Under the pieces are notes generated by a model. It saw nothing but the letters and a program-made list of their open reading frames with translations. It was not told the origin of the DNA and did not search any database. The translations under genes and the position numbers were made by a program. A stretch of DNA of 63,539 nt. Origin: Candidatus Geocrenenecus huangii. Lineage in GTDB: Archaea > Thermoproteota > Nitrososphaeria_A > Caldarchaeales > Wolframiiraptoraceae. This document shows positions 24,229 to 36,610 of the stretch, piece by piece. The stretch's first letter is position 1. Each line of letters opens with the position of its first letter. The DNA lies in contig JALNKM010000008.1 in the NCBI GenBank assembly GCA_023268155.1, forward strand, positions 1 to 63,539, read 5' to 3'.

Positions 24229-25359
24229 TCAAGATACCGCTCCATATCTTGCAGCCCACTCCATCATCCTCTTCAAAGACTCCATTCTTATGCTCGGTTT
24301 GACTTTCTTCATAACTTCTAGAAAGTCGTCCATTGTTATCTTTCTCGGCTTGTCGCCTCCACCTCTTTCGAAAAATTCGCTTACAACCTTAAGCTGCACC
24401 TCCATGCATACCTGGGAGATGTCTGCTCCACTGTATCCCTCCGTCAATCTTGCAAGCTCGTTAAAATCTATGCTACTATCCAAGTCAAGCCTTTTAGTAT
24501 AGTGCTTAAGCATCCTAAGCCTAGCCTCCATGTCTGGTAATGGTATGTATATCCTCTTCTGGAAACGTCTTATGAACGGTTCATCGAGAAGCCACGGCTT
24601 ATTCGTCGCAGCTATCACGTATATTCTAGGAGTTCTACCTTTATCTTGGAGACCATCCATCTCTTTTAAAAGCTGATTCCTTGCTCTAGCTTCTCCTCCA
24701 ACCTCGTTCTCTCTAAAAGCAGTTAATGAGTCAACTTCATCTATCAAGATTATGACGGGTTTCCCTTCCCTTTCATATTTTCTAGCTTCCTCAAATAGTG
24801 CAGCAATGTTTTTCTCCGATTCTCCAAGCCACTTAGACATGATCATTGATGCATCAGCCTGAAGAAAAACAGCATCTATCTCATTGGCAGCAGCAGCTGC
24901 AAGCATGGTCTTTCCACATCCAGGAGGGCCGAAAAACAGTATTCCACGGGGCCACCCGAGAGGGAAGAATTCCGGTCTTAGAGATGGATATATGATACTT
25001 TCTTTGAGAGCCTTCTTAGCTTCTTCCAATCCTATCACATCATCCCACTTTACAGGTGGAGGGTCTATTATGTGATAGCCTTCATGTTGTTTGCCATTCT
25101 TCGTTGGAGTATAAGCTGATTCCAAGCTCTTCTCAAGTAGAGCTTCAAGCCTTTCTTTATACTGCTTCGCTTTCTCCTCGTAGACTCTTTTCATTACAGG
25201 GTCCTCTGTAAATCTAATCAGTTTCAAGAGAAGCTGGATAGCTTCTTTATAGTTTGCAACCGCCTCCTCCCTCATACCCAGCTTATCATATTTTACAGCT
25301 TCACGTGCACGTTCAGCAGCCAGCTTCTCCAACTCTCTCATGTAAACCCTCAGAAACAT
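24229..25359 (-). CDS. cdvC: Vps4/CdvC-type AAA ATPase with MIT domain
   Basis: 376 residues. An N-terminal three-helix MIT domain (about 7-76) is followed by a linker and an AAA domain: Walker A GPPGCGKT (144-151), pore-loop SKWLGESEKN, Walker B ILIDEVD (204-210), and arginine fingers in FIRRFQKR. The end resembles the Vps4 C-terminal helix. Such ATPases disassemble ESCRT-III polymers in archaeal cell division and vesicle formation. No recognisable CdvA or CdvB gene is adjacent. The start could also be the second Met (residue 7). It is divergent from hypD and two genes from the E1-like gene. Confidence 0.9.
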   Translation of the reverse strand: MFLRVYMRELEKLAAERAREAVKYDKLGMREEAVANYKEAIQLLLKLIRFTEDPVMKRVYEEKAKQYKERLEALLEKSLESAYTPTKNGKQHEGYHIIDPPPVKWDDVIGLEEAKKALKESIIYPSLRPEFFPLGWPRGILFFGPPGCGKTMLAAAAANEIDAVFLQADASMIMSKWLGESEKNIAALFEEARKYEREGKPVIILIDEVDSLTAFRENEVGGEARARNQLLKEMDGLQDKGRTPRIYVIAATNKPWLLDEPFIRRFQKRIYIPLPDMEARLRMLKHYTKRLDLDSSIDFNELARLTEGYSGADISQVCMEVQLKVVSEFFERGGGDKPRKITMDDFLEVMKKVKPSIRMESLKRMMEWAARYGAVS

Positions 25360-25473: not shown

Positions 25474-26706
25474 ATGTTTAAGGACGGTATAGTTTTAAGA
25501 ACGACATATTTATCCATGTATGGGATGAGCTCCGTCGACCTGAGAGATGCAACCAATAGATTCTTTAGGTCAGACCGAGGATTAGCATGTAAAGTTGTAA
25601 AGATAATTGAAACATTATGGAAGAGTGTAAGATCTAAAGGCGTTGATGAATTGAAGATCATGAATTTCTGTGGAACACACGAGTGGGCCACAGTCCATTA
25701 CGGTTTAAGAACACTCCTGCCAGAAGGTATAGATATTGTAGCGGGACCAGGATGCCCCGTATGTATTACACCATCTTTCTATGTTGAGAACGCTGTCAAG
25801 CTCTCCTTAGAAGGGGTAAGAGTCTACACATATGGAGATGCTTACAAGCTTCCAGCCGTTAGGAAGATAAACGATGCCAGAAGTCTCGCCGAAGCAAGAT
25901 CCAACGGTGGTGAAGTTTCGATAGTGTATAGTCTACCCGATGCGATCAGAGATGCTAGGGAGAATACGAAGGAATCAGTATTCTTCGCGATCGGGTTTGA
26001 AACAACGTATCCAATCTATGCTTCAACAATACTGAAGAAGATGATCCCGGAAGACTTCAGCTTCATTATTGCTGGAAGATTGACTCCGCCGGCGGCAGAA
26101 TACGCTGTAGATAAGGTTGGAAGAGTCGATGCGGTAATAGCTCCTGGACATGTATCAGCAATAATTGGTGGAGAAGCTTGGAAGCCTCTATCCGAGAAGT
26201 ATAGCATACCAACTGTAGTATCCGGATTCGAGCCGCTTGACATATTGATATCTATTGCGGAAATCCTAAAACAGAAATATTATGGAAAACCTAGAGTTGT
26301 CATAGAGTATACTAGGGCTGTATCCTGGAATGGTAATAGTGTTGCTAAGAACATGGTTAAGAAGGTATTTGAAGAATGTGATGCGGCATGGAGAGGTATA
26401 GGATTTATTCCCGGAAGCGGATACAGATTAAGAGACGAATACGCTAGTTTAGATGCATTTCAGAGATATGGAATAAGAGAGCTGGACGAAACTAAATGGA
26501 GCTACGATCTATCACCTGGATGTAGATGCGGAGAAGTAATAATAGGTAAGATAAAACCAGTAGAATGCCAACTCTTCATGAAAAAATGCACACCGAATTC
26601 TCCATACGGTCCATGCATGGTATCGTCAGAGGGTGCGTGCTCTATATGGGCTAGATCTTCTCTTCAAGTTATATCCCAATCGAAGAAACTATCCCTTAAA
26701 CTCTGA
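25474..26706 (+). CDS. hypD: Hydrogenase maturation protein HypD
   Basis: 410 residues. It contains the HypD signatures FCGTHE (Cys66), GPGCPVC (Cys94, Cys97), AIGFETT, and the C-terminal cysteine-rich region that binds a [4Fe-4S] cluster (CRCGE ... CTPNSPYGPCMVSSEGAC). HypD and HypC assemble Fe(CN)2CO for the NiFe site. There is no HypC or HypE gene nearby. AGGAGG at 25448-25453 lies 20 bases before the ATG, which is farther than usual, and an in-frame TAA blocks any earlier start. Confidence 0.95.
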   Translation: MFKDGIVLRTTYLSMYGMSSVDLRDATNRFFRSDRGLACKVVKIIETLWKSVRSKGVDELKIMNFCGTHEWATVHYGLRTLLPEGIDIVAGPGCPVCITPSFYVENAVKLSLEGVRVYTYGDAYKLPAVRKINDARSLAEARSNGGEVSIVYSLPDAIRDARENTKESVFFAIGFETTYPIYASTILKKMIPEDFSFIIAGRLTPPAAEYAVDKVGRVDAVIAPGHVSAIIGGEAWKPLSEKYSIPTVVSGFEPLDILISIAEILKQKYYGKPRVVIEYTRAVSWNGNSVAKNMVKKVFEECDAAWRGIGFIPGSGYRLRDEYASLDAFQRYGIRELDETKWSYDLSPGCRCGEVIIGKIKPVECQLFMKKCTPNSPYGPCMVSSEGACSIWARSSLQVISQSKKLSLKL

Positions 26707-26949
26707 TGAGGCATGAAACCTGCGAGAACATCCTCAACGGCATCATCCGATATGAATAAGTAGATGCTTGGCAAAGTTAGAGACTTTAAAAACCTCTGAT
26801 GGTCTTGATAAGAGATTATCCAGGATAGGAAAAGATACCGCTTAAATAAGAGTTAGGCTTAGCCTACTATAAAGAAGCAGGCATCCATTTTCATCTTAAT
26901 TAGATAGTTTACTACTATAAACATCTAGATTGGAGATATATCGTGGAAG

Positions 26950-28137
26950 ATGTGGGGTATTCTGGGTATGCAGAACCTGGAGAGATATGAGAGGCAGTTA
27001 AGGATAGAGGGATGGAGACAGGATAAGCTTGCTGAATCAACTGTTATGGTTATTGGGGTTGGAGCTATAGGATGCGAGGTGGCGAAAAATCTTACTTTAA
27101 TGGGTGTTGGAAGATTGATAATAGTAGATAATGACGTAGTTGAAGTATCCAACCTCAGTAGACAGATGCTCTTCACAGATGATGATGTAGGTAGACCTAA
27201 GACTGTGGCCGCAAAAGAAAAACTTGTAAAAATGAATCCGCTGGTTATAGTAGACCAATACTATAGTGATGTCAGAGAATTGAGTGAAGATCTTTTCAGG
27301 AAAGCCGAAGTGGTCTGCTCATGTTTAGATAACTGGCCTGTAAGAAGATGGGTTAACTCAATGTGTATTGAGCTAGATAAGCCTTTAGTAGATGTAGCGA
27401 TGGAGGGACTTTACTCAAACCTCCAGGTAGTGATTCCCGGCAAAACAGCCTGCTTAGAATGTCATGGAGAAGATCTAATCCCTAGAGAGATACAGCTTGC
27501 TGAATGCACCCTAAGGAGGAGAAAGCCTGAAGACTTGAAGAAAGATCTAGAAGAACAAAAAATACATGTAAGTCTCGATCTAGTTGAAAGACTCTTCGAA
27601 GTAGGTATAAAGACTATTTTCGATATAAAATACTCTCAAGCACAGATACTTGACAAACTGGATGAAGATGTTAGAATCAAGGTTAGAGAGATACAGGAAT
27701 CACTTAAGCCTAAGATGCCTGCTCTCCAAAGTGTCGCTGCCACCATCGCGGGGATAGCAACCACGGAGATTGTAAAGATACTCCATGGAGAATCTCTTGG
27801 AAGAATACTTAACGGACTTCTAGTCTACGATGGCTACTCCACTAGATTCACTAAAGTAAAATTAATGAGGAAGATTGAGTGCTTCGCATGCGGAGAACAT
27901 GTAAAAACAGAGGGAGCCGAGATCTCTGTAAGCTTAGATGATAGGGTAATAGATTTAAAGAAGAAGATCGCTGAAAGCTTCGGTTTCCCGGATCCAGAGA
28001 TACTCTACAAGAAATGGAGGCTACAAGATGACCAAACACTGAGAGAAGTAGGAATAAAAGACGGCGATATAACATATGTAGAGACTAGTAGAAGGTTCAC
28101 TCCTCTACCATTAAAGCTAATTCTTAAAACATCATAG
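26950..28137 (+). CDS. E1-like ubiquitin-activating enzyme with C-terminal ubiquitin-fold domain
   Basis: 395 residues. The adenylation domain has the nucleotide loop GVGAIG (36-41), Asp60, NLSRQ (Arg71) and RPK (Lys84). The zinc pairs are CLEC (168-171) and CFAC (311-314). A cysteine in AECTLRRRKPEDL (Cys186) lies at the place of the thioester Cys of eukaryotic Uba2/Uba3 (which have CTI before a Pro-rich helix). Residues about 324-378 form a ubiquitin-like fold ending TLREVGIKDGD, as in the E2-binding UFD of eukaryotic E1s; a built-in modifier is the less likely reading. ThiF/MoeB relatives lack this C-terminal part. A RING gene follows 75 bases downstream. No E2, modifier or Rpn11-type protease gene is visible. 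Confidence 0.87.
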   Translation: MWGILGMQNLERYERQLRIEGWRQDKLAESTVMVIGVGAIGCEVAKNLTLMGVGRLIIVDNDVVEVSNLSRQMLFTDDDVGRPKTVAAKEKLVKMNPLVIVDQYYSDVRELSEDLFRKAEVVCSCLDNWPVRRWVNSMCIELDKPLVDVAMEGLYSNLQVVIPGKTACLECHGEDLIPREIQLAECTLRRRKPEDLKKDLEEQKIHVSLDLVERLFEVGIKTIFDIKYSQAQILDKLDEDVRIKVREIQESLKPKMPALQSVAATIAGIATTEIVKILHGESLGRILNGLLVYDGYSTRFTKVKLMRKIECFACGEHVKTEGAEISVSLDDRVIDLKKKIAESFGFPDPEILYKKWRLQDDQTLREVGIKDGDITYVETSRRFTPLPLKLILKTS

Positions 28138-28163
28138 AATAATTTATTTCTGAAGTAGAAAGA

Positions 28164-28174
28164 ATACATATATA
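28164..28174 (+). promoter_or_regulatory. TATA-like element before the RING gene
   Basis: ACATATATACT lies about 44 bases before the RING ATG. A GGTGG sequence about nine bases before the ATG can serve as ribosome-binding site. The RING gene may therefore have its own promoter as well as read-through from the E1-like gene. Confidence 0.4.
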
Positions 28175-28212
28175 CTGATAAACTAGGCCATCTATCTCGG
28201 TGGATTCACATA

Positions 28213-28473
28213 ATGAAGAGGATAAAGATAGGTAAGCCTGTAAGTAAGGGACTCTGGAATCCTTGGGCTATTGAAGAAGTTAAGAAGACCACTCCCCCTC
28301 CTCCCAAGCTTGAGACTAAGCGTATATGTGTAGTGTGTCTTTCAGAGATTAGTGAAGGAGCCCCTGTAATCGAATGTCCTTATTGTGGAGCTATTGGGCA
28401 TGAAAACTGTTTTGAGGATTGGATAACTATGAAGAGTAGATGTCCCTTATGTAGAAGACCGATAACCCTTTAA
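28213..28473 (+). CDS. Small RING-finger protein, candidate ubiquitin ligase
   Basis: 86 residues. After a basic N-terminus and a proline stretch (PPPP, 28-31) comes one RING: Cys39, Cys42, Cys55, Cys58, His63, Cys66, Cys77, Cys80 in the order C-x2-C ... C-x2-C-x4-H-x2-C ... C-x2-C. The hydrophobic and Trp positions that contact E2 in eukaryotic RINGs appear present (Val40 after the first Cys, Trp70, Pro78 in CPLC). It recalls the small RING protein of the Caldiarchaeum ubiquitin cluster. Position directly after the E1-like gene supports a role as E3. Confidence 0.83.
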   Translation: MKRIKIGKPVSKGLWNPWAIEEVKKTTPPPPKLETKRICVVCLSEISEGAPVIECPYCGAIGHENCFEDWITMKSRCPLCRRPITL

Positions 28474-28585: not shown

Positions 28586-28978
28586 GTGGAGAAATTGTCT
28601 GGAGAATCTAGGAAAGAAGAAAAAAGAATTGAGATAGAGATTATCCCTGAATATCTAGATACTCCTAGTGGGAAGAAGGTCGCAACATTTGATTTCGTCA
28701 TGGGTGTTGCCAAGGGTTTAGAAGTCTTAGATGAGGCCGAAGCAAAACTAGAGGAAAGAATAGAAAGAATAGAGAAAGGTGAGTATTTAGCCAAACTTAT
28801 CGAGAGGCTTGATAAGTTTGAAGTAAGAATTGCGGCCATTGAGAAAACTCTATCAAATTTGGAGAAGAACATCCAGACTGAGATAGGCGATATTTCAGAT
28901 AAGGTCTCAGCATTGATTGATGCTTTTCATGAGCTAACTGAAAAACTACAGAGGATGGAAACTTTTTCTAAGGACTAA
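28586..28978 (+). CDS. Small coiled-coil protein
   Basis: 130 residues from GTG 28586 (a TTG three codons later is also possible). The first 50 residues look folded (IEIEIIPEYLDTPSGKKVATFDFVMGVAKGLEVLDEAE) and the rest is a heptad coiled coil. A TATA-like AATTTAATATAG ends about 23 bases before GTG, suggesting a leaderless transcript. The 3' end overlaps the convergent larger coiled-coil gene by 11 bases. Function unknown. It lies between the two RING genes. Confidence 0.65.
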   Translation: MEKLSGESRKEEKRIEIEIIPEYLDTPSGKKVATFDFVMGVAKGLEVLDEAEAKLEERIERIEKGEYLAKLIERLDKFEVRIAAIEKTLSNLEKNIQTEIGDISDKVSALIDAFHELTEKLQRMETFSKD

Positions 28979-29834
28979 GATAAGCTCTTCTTAATTCTCC
29001 CAAGAGCTTCTCAAGCCTAGACCTCTTATCTTCCAGTTCTCTAATCTCGGTCTCGATCCTTCTCTTCCTCTCACTTAAAGTATTTATTTCCGCTCTAAGC
29101 TGAGAGGCCTTCTTTTCTAATTCTGCTGCAGCTTCTTCTTTTTCTCTCAGCTTGGCCAGGGATTCCTTCAACTCAGCCTCTCTCCTTACAAGTCTCTCAA
29201 GCCTAATTTCTCTAAGCTTAAAATCTCTCACCATCTCTTTAATCATCTCTTCAAGTCTGCTTCTCGCTTCCTCAATGCCCGATAAATATCTCTGAGAAAG
29301 CTCAGCGACCTTCTGTTCAAGTTCTCTCTTCTTCTCCTCTAAAGTATTTATCATCTCTTCCCTCATGCTCAATTCTCTTTCTTTCTTCTCTAATTCTTCT
29401 CTCCATTTTCTCAACTCTTCCTTCATAGATTCTAGCTCCGTCCTCTCCTTGACCAGCTGCTGGGTTTCCTGCCTAATCATTTCTCTTTCCTTGGTTAATG
29501 CTTCAACTATATCTTTTATCCCCTCCTGAACTGAGAGCAGCATGTTTTCATAGTATCTAACTATTGTAAGTTCTTCGGAGACCTTTTCAAGTTCTCCTAT
29601 GAATGGCGCGATCTTTCCCTCGAAGACTGATGGAAAAGATGAAAGTGTTGACGTTAACGTTATTAGGTTATTCACATTTCTCCCAATATCTTCCAGTGAA
29701 TCGTTTAGTCTATCAACTGCCTCCGTAAGCTTCTCAATTATACCTTGCTTGGTACTTGATAGTTCTTGAGAAAACTTTTGCTCTAATTCTTCAAGCCACT
29801 TCTCCTTCTTTGAAGAAGATGAAAATATGCTCAT
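28968..29834 (-). CDS. Long coiled-coil protein
   Basis: 288 residues, almost entirely heptad coiled coil and highly charged, with no signal peptide or membrane segment. A short Ser-rich start (MSIFSSSSKKEKWLEEL) is followed by an amphipathic part and then two long coils separated near residue 105. The length suggests a filament or scaffold protein. It converges on, and overlaps by 11 bases, the smaller coiled-coil gene. I do not recognise a family. A relation to the Vps4-type ATPase or the RING proteins is only positional. Confidence 0.7.
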   Translation of the reverse strand: MSIFSSSSKKEKWLEELEQKFSQELSSTKQGIIEKLTEAVDRLNDSLEDIGRNVNNLITLTSTLSSFPSVFEGKIAPFIGELEKVSEELTIVRYYENMLLSVQEGIKDIVEALTKEREMIRQETQQLVKERTELESMKEELRKWREELEKKERELSMREEMINTLEEKKRELEQKVAELSQRYLSGIEEARSRLEEMIKEMVRDFKLREIRLERLVRREAELKESLAKLREKEEAAAELEKKASQLRAEINTLSERKRRIETEIRELEDKRSRLEKLLGELRRAYLSP

Positions 29835-30162: not shown

Positions 30163-30894
30163 TTGATTGTTACACATGAAGAAGTTGTATCAAGGTTTTT
30201 TAAGATTGGCGCAGGTGGGGCCGTCGCAGGAGCTATACACATCCTTACATTGCTACTAGGATGGTATATTGAGACGAATGGAGAAGCAGTCTTAACTCTT
30301 ACCGGATATAATTTCATCGAATCTTTTCTATTTTCTGTAGTTGGTGGTTTACTAGCTGGTTTCAGCTTACTTATAGCATACCTGGTTAAGAAGTTGAATG
30401 CAATTAAAGTGCTGCTCGGAGGATTAACACTGACTGGTGGACTTTTATCTCTATTCTCTCCAATATACATATATGTATTCAAGATACTTGGAGTAAATCT
30501 TAGAGGATACCCGGACATAGGGTTTTTCGCAGCAATATTTACAGCGATCATTGAGCTCGGCATAGGTGCTCTCATACTCTTGACGCCCTTGAAGAAAGAG
30601 GTAATCTATCCAATGGAGATTCCGCCAACCGTCGCGTATCCTGATACTTTATCTACTGAGCCAAGTGGGCCACAGCCTAGATTGAGGGGTGAGAGAAGTA
30701 GGACTTCTGTTGCACAAATAGAGATTGCAGAAGACGTTGAAGAAGGAGTATGCACTATATGTTATTATCCGTTAACCAGCGGGAATACTGTAAGATGTAG
30801 CGCATGCGGAGCACTCTTTCACAGAGACTGTATAGATGCATGGGTTAATCTAAATCATTCTTGTCCAAACTGTAAAGCGTTAATGTATAGCTGA
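30163..30894 (+). CDS. Membrane-anchored RING-finger protein
   Basis: 243 residues, start TTG. Four hydrophobic helices (about 15-35, 52-75, 82-107, 118-141) are followed by a Pro/Ser/Arg-rich linker (about 150-185) and a C-terminal RING: Cys197, Cys200, Cys212, Cys215, His220, Cys223, Cys234, Cys237. The RING spacing is the same type as in the small RING protein, with WVNLNHSCPNC resembling RING-H2 ends. The layout matches eukaryotic membrane ubiquitin ligases and places the RING on the cytoplasmic side if both termini are inside. A role as E3 for membrane proteins is inference from architecture and neighbourhood. Confidence 0.8.
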   Translation: MIVTHEEVVSRFFKIGAGGAVAGAIHILTLLLGWYIETNGEAVLTLTGYNFIESFLFSVVGGLLAGFSLLIAYLVKKLNAIKVLLGGLTLTGGLLSLFSPIYIYVFKILGVNLRGYPDIGFFAAIFTAIIELGIGALILLTPLKKEVIYPMEIPPTVAYPDTLSTEPSGPQPRLRGERSRTSVAQIEIAEDVEEGVCTICYYPLTSGNTVRCSACGALFHRDCIDAWVNLNHSCPNCKALMYS

Positions 30895-35506: not shown

Positions 35507-36610
35507 TTATATCAGCTCTGTTTCTTTTAAGAGCTGTAATGCTTCTTCCTCTGTAAGTCTACGTTTATGTAGAATTGTAAACTTCTCTCGTCTAATATCT
35601 GGAGAGAAGACTAAAGCCTTCACAGCTATCTCTACAGGGATTCCTAACTGATTCAAGCTTAACGGTATCCCCGCTTTCTCCATGTATCTTCTAAGCTGCC
35701 TCCATTCGTAGTCTGGATTTTTCCACCAGTTTGGATTGTATCTTTCATGATAGAGAGATGACGGTAGAGTCCCTAGAGCACATTGTATCCCATGAGGTGC
35801 CCTGCGAGACGAATACATATCTATGTAGTGGCTGAATAAATGTTCACTTCCAGAAGCCGGTCGAGAAGAACCAGCAATCATCATAGATATACCTGAATAG
35901 ATTAATGCTTCAGCAATCTTTTCATAATCTTTAACTCTTCCCATCTTCAAACAGCCAACTACTATTTCTACAGCCTTCATAGTATATTTCTCAGCCGTGT
36001 AGCAATATTTTTCTCCAGTCTCATCTCTCCCCAGCTGCCAATCTTTTATTGATACGACTTTAGCCAATAAGTCTCCAAAGCCTGAAGAGAGCAATATTTT
36101 AGGAGCTTTTGATATCAAGTCTAAATCTATTAATGAGAATATCGGTGCCTTAGTCACGATAGATCTTCTCCCACTTTCACTAAATAATGAGACTATAGGA
36201 GAAACTATACCATCATGGGATAACGCGGTTGGAATCGTGAGAAAGAAGGCTTCATTCTTGTAGGCGGTATACTTTGCTACATCTATCACTGTTCCTCCAC
36301 CTACCGCTATAACTGTCCGAGCATCTTTAGCTAGAATGGTTTTCCCTTCTGCTTCTCTGAATGTTGGTTCATTTACTATTATCCCTAGACCATCAACGAG
36401 TTCTACTATCCTCTTTCCAGCGACTTTGAAGGTATTCTCATCATAGAAGACGGCTACTGGCTTCTCAACATTCAGTATTTCCAGGAATCTCGGAAGATCT
36501 TCTACTATTCCTCTACCGACAACTACTTCTCTTAATGTTTTTTCATGGGGTAGACTGCATCCACATTCTTCCCTACTTGGGATTATTCTCCTAATATCTA
36601 GCTTCTTCAA
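35507..36610 (-). CDS. egsA: sn-Glycerol-1-phosphate dehydrogenase
   Basis: 367 residues, start TTG. It makes the glycerol-1-phosphate backbone of archaeal ether lipids from dihydroxyacetone phosphate with NAD(P)H. The nucleotide loop is AVGGGTVIDVAKY. Zinc ligands are expected in TALSHDGIVSP, SEHLFSHYID and APHGIQ, all present. A TATA-like AAATTTAAG about 26 bases before the TTG points to a leaderless transcript. Confidence 0.95.
   Translation of the reverse strand: MKKLDIRRIIPSREECGCSLPHEKTLREVVVGRGIVEDLPRFLEILNVEKPVAVFYDENTFKVAGKRIVELVDGLGIIVNEPTFREAEGKTILAKDARTVIAVGGGTVIDVAKYTAYKNEAFFLTIPTALSHDGIVSPIVSLFSESGRRSIVTKAPIFSLIDLDLISKAPKILLSSGFGDLLAKVVSIKDWQLGRDETGEKYCYTAEKYTMKAVEIVVGCLKMGRVKDYEKIAEALIYSGISMMIAGSSRPASGSEHLFSHYIDMYSSRRAPHGIQCALGTLPSSLYHERYNPNWWKNPDYEWRQLRRYMEKAGIPLSLNQLGIPVEIAVKALVFSPDIRREKFTILHKRRLTEEEALQLLKETELI

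Follow-up and report, generated by a model that had tools for sequence, protein, structure and literature searches.

A Caldiarchaeum-Type Ubiquitin-Activating Enzyme in Candidatus Geocrenenecus huangii, Probably Parted from Its Operon Partners by Genome Rearrangement

Results

The window analyzed here, a stretch of 63,539 nucleotides from Candidatus Geocrenenecus huangii, carries a gene for a ubiquitin-activating enzyme (E1), followed by genes for two RING proteins (Table 1). Two coiled-coil proteins sit between the RING genes, a placement conserved across much of the order. Upstream of E1 lies hypD, and adjoining hypD is an ATPase of the Vps4/CdvC type with a MIT domain (ESCRT). In one relative (G003), such an ATPase and the ubiquitin cluster are found on one contig.

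Table 1. Features of the E1 locus and of the operon half on contig C16. Positions are those of the window unless C16 is given; residue numbers follow the listed E1 start.
Feature	Position	Strand	Basis
Vps4/CdvC-type ATPase with MIT domain	24229–25359	-	
hypD, new upstream neighbor of E1 from the rearrangement	25474–26706	+	PF01924; junction common to two sister genomes
Rearrangement junction hypD/E1	26707–26949		Counterpart E2/hypC at C16:6904–7066
CATCTTAATTAGATAGTTTAC, 21 bases	26892–26912	+	
E1 ubiquitin-activating enzyme (Caldiarchaeum E1l family)	26950–28137	+	PF00899 and PF00240; 50–84% identity across the order; fold match to UBA3
RYxRQ arginine motif of MoeB/ThiF type, residues 12–16	26983–26997	+	Alignment; UBA2 and UBA3 without the motif
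Glycine-rich ATP loop GVGAIG, residues 36–41	27055–27072	+	Homolog alignment
First zinc pair, C168/C171	27451–27462	+	Invariant (n = 22 homologs)
Cys186, predicted thioester cysteine	27505–27507	+	Invariant in 22 homologs; aligned with UBA3/UBA2/Uba1 catalytic cysteine
Second zinc pair, C311/C314	27880–27891	+	Invariant (n = 22 homologs)
C-terminal ubiquitin-fold domain (UFD), residues 322–392, predicted E2-docking	27913–28125	+	PF00240; predicted secondary structure; fold matched by UBA3 and UBA2 along the whole length
Small RING-type E3 (srfp) with C4HC3 ligands for zinc and Arg81 as linchpin	28213–28473	+	zf-RING_2, E = 1e-11; alignment
Coiled-coil protein	28586–28978	+	
Coiled-coil protein	28968–29834	-	
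Second RING protein, with C-terminal C4HC3 RING and four predicted membrane helices; candidate membrane E3	30163–30894	+	Pfam; helix prediction; alignment
Rpn11	C16:5025–5660	-	JAMM-type motif HSHP...S..D; Pfam above cut-off
Pro-ubiquitin	C16:5980–6228		C-terminus TRTVGG-VYVE; Pfam above cut-off
E2	C16:6421–6903		HPN, cysteine in ARVCES, EDWSP; Pfam above cut-off

The E1 reading frame encodes 395 residues from its listed start; judged against the relatives, the ATG at 26968 (MQNLERYERQ, 389 residues) is the more likely start. A Pfam search assigned residues 13–307 to the ThiF family (E = 2e-60) and residues 324–374 to the ubiquitin family (E = 1e-6, exceeding the curated cut-off). In an alignment of homologs from within the order, C168, C171, C186, C311 and C314 are present in 22 of 22 sequences, and R12, Y13, R15 and Q16 of the arginine motif show no variation (n = 22). 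A second alignment set the archaeal E1 beside human UBA3 and UBA2 (the sequences used are identical to the PDB chains over the length used), the active half of yeast Uba1, MoeB and ThiF from E. coli, and a set of 19 MoeB/ThiF-type proteins from archaea. Here Cys186 shares a column with the catalytic cysteines of UBA3 (FPMCTIA), UBA2 (FPGCTIR) and Uba1 (IPLCTLR), a column in which the MoeB/ThiF proteins have no conserved residue.

An AlphaFold model based on the 22-row alignment reached a mean pLDDT of 84 and a pTM of 0.77, with confidence dropping to a pLDDT of about 60 around Cys186. In a Foldseek search of the PDB, ranks 1–10 were UBA3 chains, followed by UBA2; the top UBA3 match was full-length, with a TM score of 0.72 (query length) and about 25% identity, and the ThiF match spanned a shorter stretch. 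The C-terminal domain is predicted to adopt the ubiquitin-like strand–helix–strand pattern with a last strand at residues 386–392. Since this strand corresponds in the alignment to the ends of UBA3 and UBA2, the domain looks like the UFD of an E1 and not like a fused modifier; its similarity to the genome's own ubiquitin is weak (25% over 52 residues).

Could the protein be a sulfur-transfer adenylyltransferase of the MoeB/ThiF kind that has acquired an extra C-terminal domain? It shares the RYxRQ motif with that family, and among NCBIfam models its core scores best against ThiF and MoeB, yet far below their cut-offs. Two separate MoeB/ThiF-type genes exist elsewhere in the genome, and the catalytic cysteine, the UFD and the fold speak against such an assignment, as does the tree. 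The latter was computed from 240 columns of the adenylation core in 44 rows, with Asgard and Uba5-type sequences left out. It unites the archaeal E1s in one group (91/88), separate both from a MoeB/ThiF clade (100/99) and from three eukaryotic rows (95/95), the deep branch order not being given by the tree. On the combined weight of tree, cysteine and UFD we exclude membership in the MoeB/ThiF family, to which we assign a negligible probability. A divergent ThiF-type protein from another order of the phylum (L129, G174:C17:15800-17800) sits on a long branch with no firm place between the E1s and MoeB/ThiF. The original prediction, read from the letters of the DNA, had described an adenylation core, two zinc pairs, a thioester-type cysteine at position 186 and a C-terminal ubiquitin fold in a Uba2/Uba3-type layout distinct from that of MoeB/ThiF, with a small RING protein behind the E1, and all of these elements are borne out by the searches, the alignment, the predicted fold and the tree.

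Exactly two zf-RING_2 matches occur in the genome at E values up to 0.1, and both lie inside the window. In the second RING protein, the eight C4HC3 ligands are invariant in 12 genomes, the E2-docking Trp227 is nearly invariant, and the linchpin position is mostly occupied by Lys; four long hydrophobic helices are predicted. In several families within the order, the gene keeps its place close to the cluster of ubiquitin genes.

As the original prediction had stated, no E2, ubiquitin or protease gene is found at the E1 locus. All three are present on contig C16, so the cascade is complete in the genome: E1, E2, ubiquitin, RING and Rpn11 are encoded together in one organism. In searches of the genome, made by family, protein or pattern, E2 gave a single match and ubiquitin a single strong one. 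The locus, taken by itself, would be compatible with a differently built system in which E1 and RING act on another modifier without E2 or Rpn11. We consider this exceedingly improbable and reject it because the genes for E2, ubiquitin and Rpn11 reside in the same genome, where the E2 and the strong ubiquitin match are each the only one, and because most relatives have kept the operon whole. Of the two options initially offered, a split or a differently built system, the first thus stands, as the rearrangement of an operon still whole elsewhere in the order, and the second falls to the standard E2, pro-ubiquitin and Rpn11 on C16.

The E1 is a regular component of the Caldarchaeales. Full E1 genes are found in 41 of the 44 genomes of the order and pieces in two more, and E2 matches in 44 of 44, weak in one incomplete genome. 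When 397 genomes sampled from the phylum were searched with the full-length E1 profile, the matches listed all fell inside this order. The closest named E1s are those of Candidatus Geocrenenecus arthurdayi (84% identity) and Nitrososphaerales archaeon KUA_Bin06 (a MAG; 79%), followed by Aigarchaeota archaeon SKYB24 (75%) and Ca. Geocrenenecus dongiae (70%). Of the 43 genomes having both E2 and E1, 39 carry them on one contig at most about 2.1 kb apart. The two genes are split in three, the present genome (G000), G001 and G004; in G021 both genes lie near contig ends and were counted as neither adjacent nor split. Intact loci are arranged in the order Rpn11 (minus strand), ubiquitin, E2, E1, RING, and many extend with the two coiled-coil genes, the membrane RING and GlyRS.

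In the split genomes the new joins are hypD/E1 and E2/hypC–hypE. The distance from hypD to hypE is about 0.5 kb in G002. In G003, hypD, hypC and hypE are contiguous, and E1 lies about 16 kb away on the same contig in opposite orientation; from such a layout, one inversion yields both new joins. Because the three split genomes form one clade (100/96), a single ancestral event suffices, most simply an inversion, which would have reciprocally exchanged the E2/E1 and hypD/hypC junctions in their common ancestor. A single simple inversion does not account for how the window and C16 join, so at least one further breakpoint must be assumed; in G000, one is seen at window position 36610 and C16 position 20087. 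This additional local breakpoint, together with the draft state of the genome (21 contigs), might suggest that the split is an error of assembly or binning and that the organism itself has an unbroken operon. Both new junctions, however, are internal to contigs and are seen again in two further assemblies (79–84% E1 identity), and the ancestral outer neighbors are kept on both halves. With both junctions common to three assemblies we dismiss an artefact, which is very unlikely.

The junctions differ in detail. Some 1.5 kb of extra sequence separates hypD from E1 in G004. There (L081:10740-11654, minus strand) E1 is flanked by imperfect 71-base repeats and an ORF resembling a transposase, and the srfp gene is absent between E1 and the contig end. 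Mobile elements were weighed as the cause of the split, but by eye none were seen in the short junctions of G000 and G001. In these two genomes E1 is preceded by CATCTTAATTAGATAGTTTAC, which may serve the rearranged gene as a promoter element; we looked for it as a repeated regulatory site, but it occurs as a single copy in the genome and hence does not define a regulon.

Discussion

Our analyses identify the gene, with a probability of roughly 95%, as the E1 of the known ubiquitin cascade of hot-spring Caldarchaeales (Caldiarchaeum type), in an operon that was split by rearrangement. It is a new member of a known system with a lineage-specific operon split, not a differently built one. The E1 family, its C-terminal ubiquitin-like (UBL) domain and the cascade have been published (PMC5654768, PMC6043591, PMC6053391), and the cascade of Candidatus Caldiarchaeum subterraneum was reconstituted in 2017, with the cleavage, E1, E2 and RING steps shown biochemically and a UBL domain reported in the E1 (PMC5654768). 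Geocrenenecus has been placed in the Caldarchaeales, synonymous with Aigarchaeota (PMC9246946), and a ubiquitin system was present in all six Aigarchaeota genomes of an earlier study (PMC6053391).

Judging from orthology to the C. subterraneum enzymes, we propose the following model. Rpn11 would trim pro-ubiquitin after Gly-Gly. The E1, probably as a MoeB-like homodimer, would adenylate the terminal glycine of ubiquitin and accept it as a thioester on Cys186. Its C-terminal ubiquitin-fold domain would then dock the E2, which takes over the ubiquitin, and the small RING protein, perhaps also the membrane RING, would steer the transfer to a substrate lysine. The first step need not be universal: in five genomes of the order ubiquitin stops directly at Gly-Gly (G011, G008, G012, G042 and G038; L088, L089, L090, L098 and L100), so trimming is not needed everywhere, and the tails found elsewhere range from 2 to about 20 residues. 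In structures of MoeB and Uba1, the arginine of the RYxRQ motif reaches the neighboring ATP site in the dimer. With this motif retained, the archaeal E1 is likely to be a symmetric homodimer without an Aos1/APPBP1-like subunit.

What might the second RING protein contribute? A second E3 protein beside the C. subterraneum operon has been mentioned, both being termed small RING proteins (PMC6043591); in the literature searched, mostly outside subscription journals, we found no description of it as a membrane protein. We speculate, with some doubt, that it is a four-helix membrane E3, so that membrane proteins would be ubiquitylated, and that the rearrangement in this genus also placed the E1 and both RING genes under control separate from ubiquitin and E2. 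The window thereby indicates a specific candidate for a membrane ubiquitin ligase.

The finding corrects a reading by which the ubiquitin system would have seemed to be of a new kind. Archaeal ubiquitin systems are often called by operon linkage, which can vanish while all parts persist, and searches limited to clusters would consequently miss such genomes.

Compared with the cascade of C. subterraneum (E1l, E2l, Ub, srfp and Rpn11; PMC5654768, PMC6043591), the present system has the same parts, the same E1 domain plan of a ThiF core and a C-terminal UBL domain, as seen in Pfam matches, predicted secondary structure and fold, and the same gene neighbors. It differs in that the operon lies in two halves, on contigs C20 and C16, and in the pro-ubiquitin tail, which is VYVE here and nine residues long in C. 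subterraneum. As the cluster is intact in relatives, the split is a derived state and no test of the protein's family. Orthology is indicated by full-length identity of 50% to the E1 of G024 and by common membership in the archaeal E1 group; G024 is probably C. subterraneum itself, given a ubiquitin with a 9-residue tail and srfp residues I30 and R69 that match the published protein. A close relation to eukaryotic E1s also emerged from the published E1 tree (PMC5654768).

Human UBA3 (catalytic subunit of the NEDD8 E1) and UBA2 (SUMO E1), the best fold matches, share the order of adenylation domain, zinc site, catalytic cysteine and UFD with the archaeal E1, whose Cys domain is shorter. UBA2 and UBA3 act as heterodimers with SAE1 and APPBP1, respectively. 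Both lack the RYxRQ motif, its function being supplied by the partner subunit, whereas the archaeal E1 keeps it. MoeB and ThiF have the adenylation core, the arginine motif and the zinc cysteines in common with the archaeal protein, and probably the type of dimer as well, but possess neither a catalytic cysteine at the position of Cys186 nor a UFD, both of which the archaeal E1 has.
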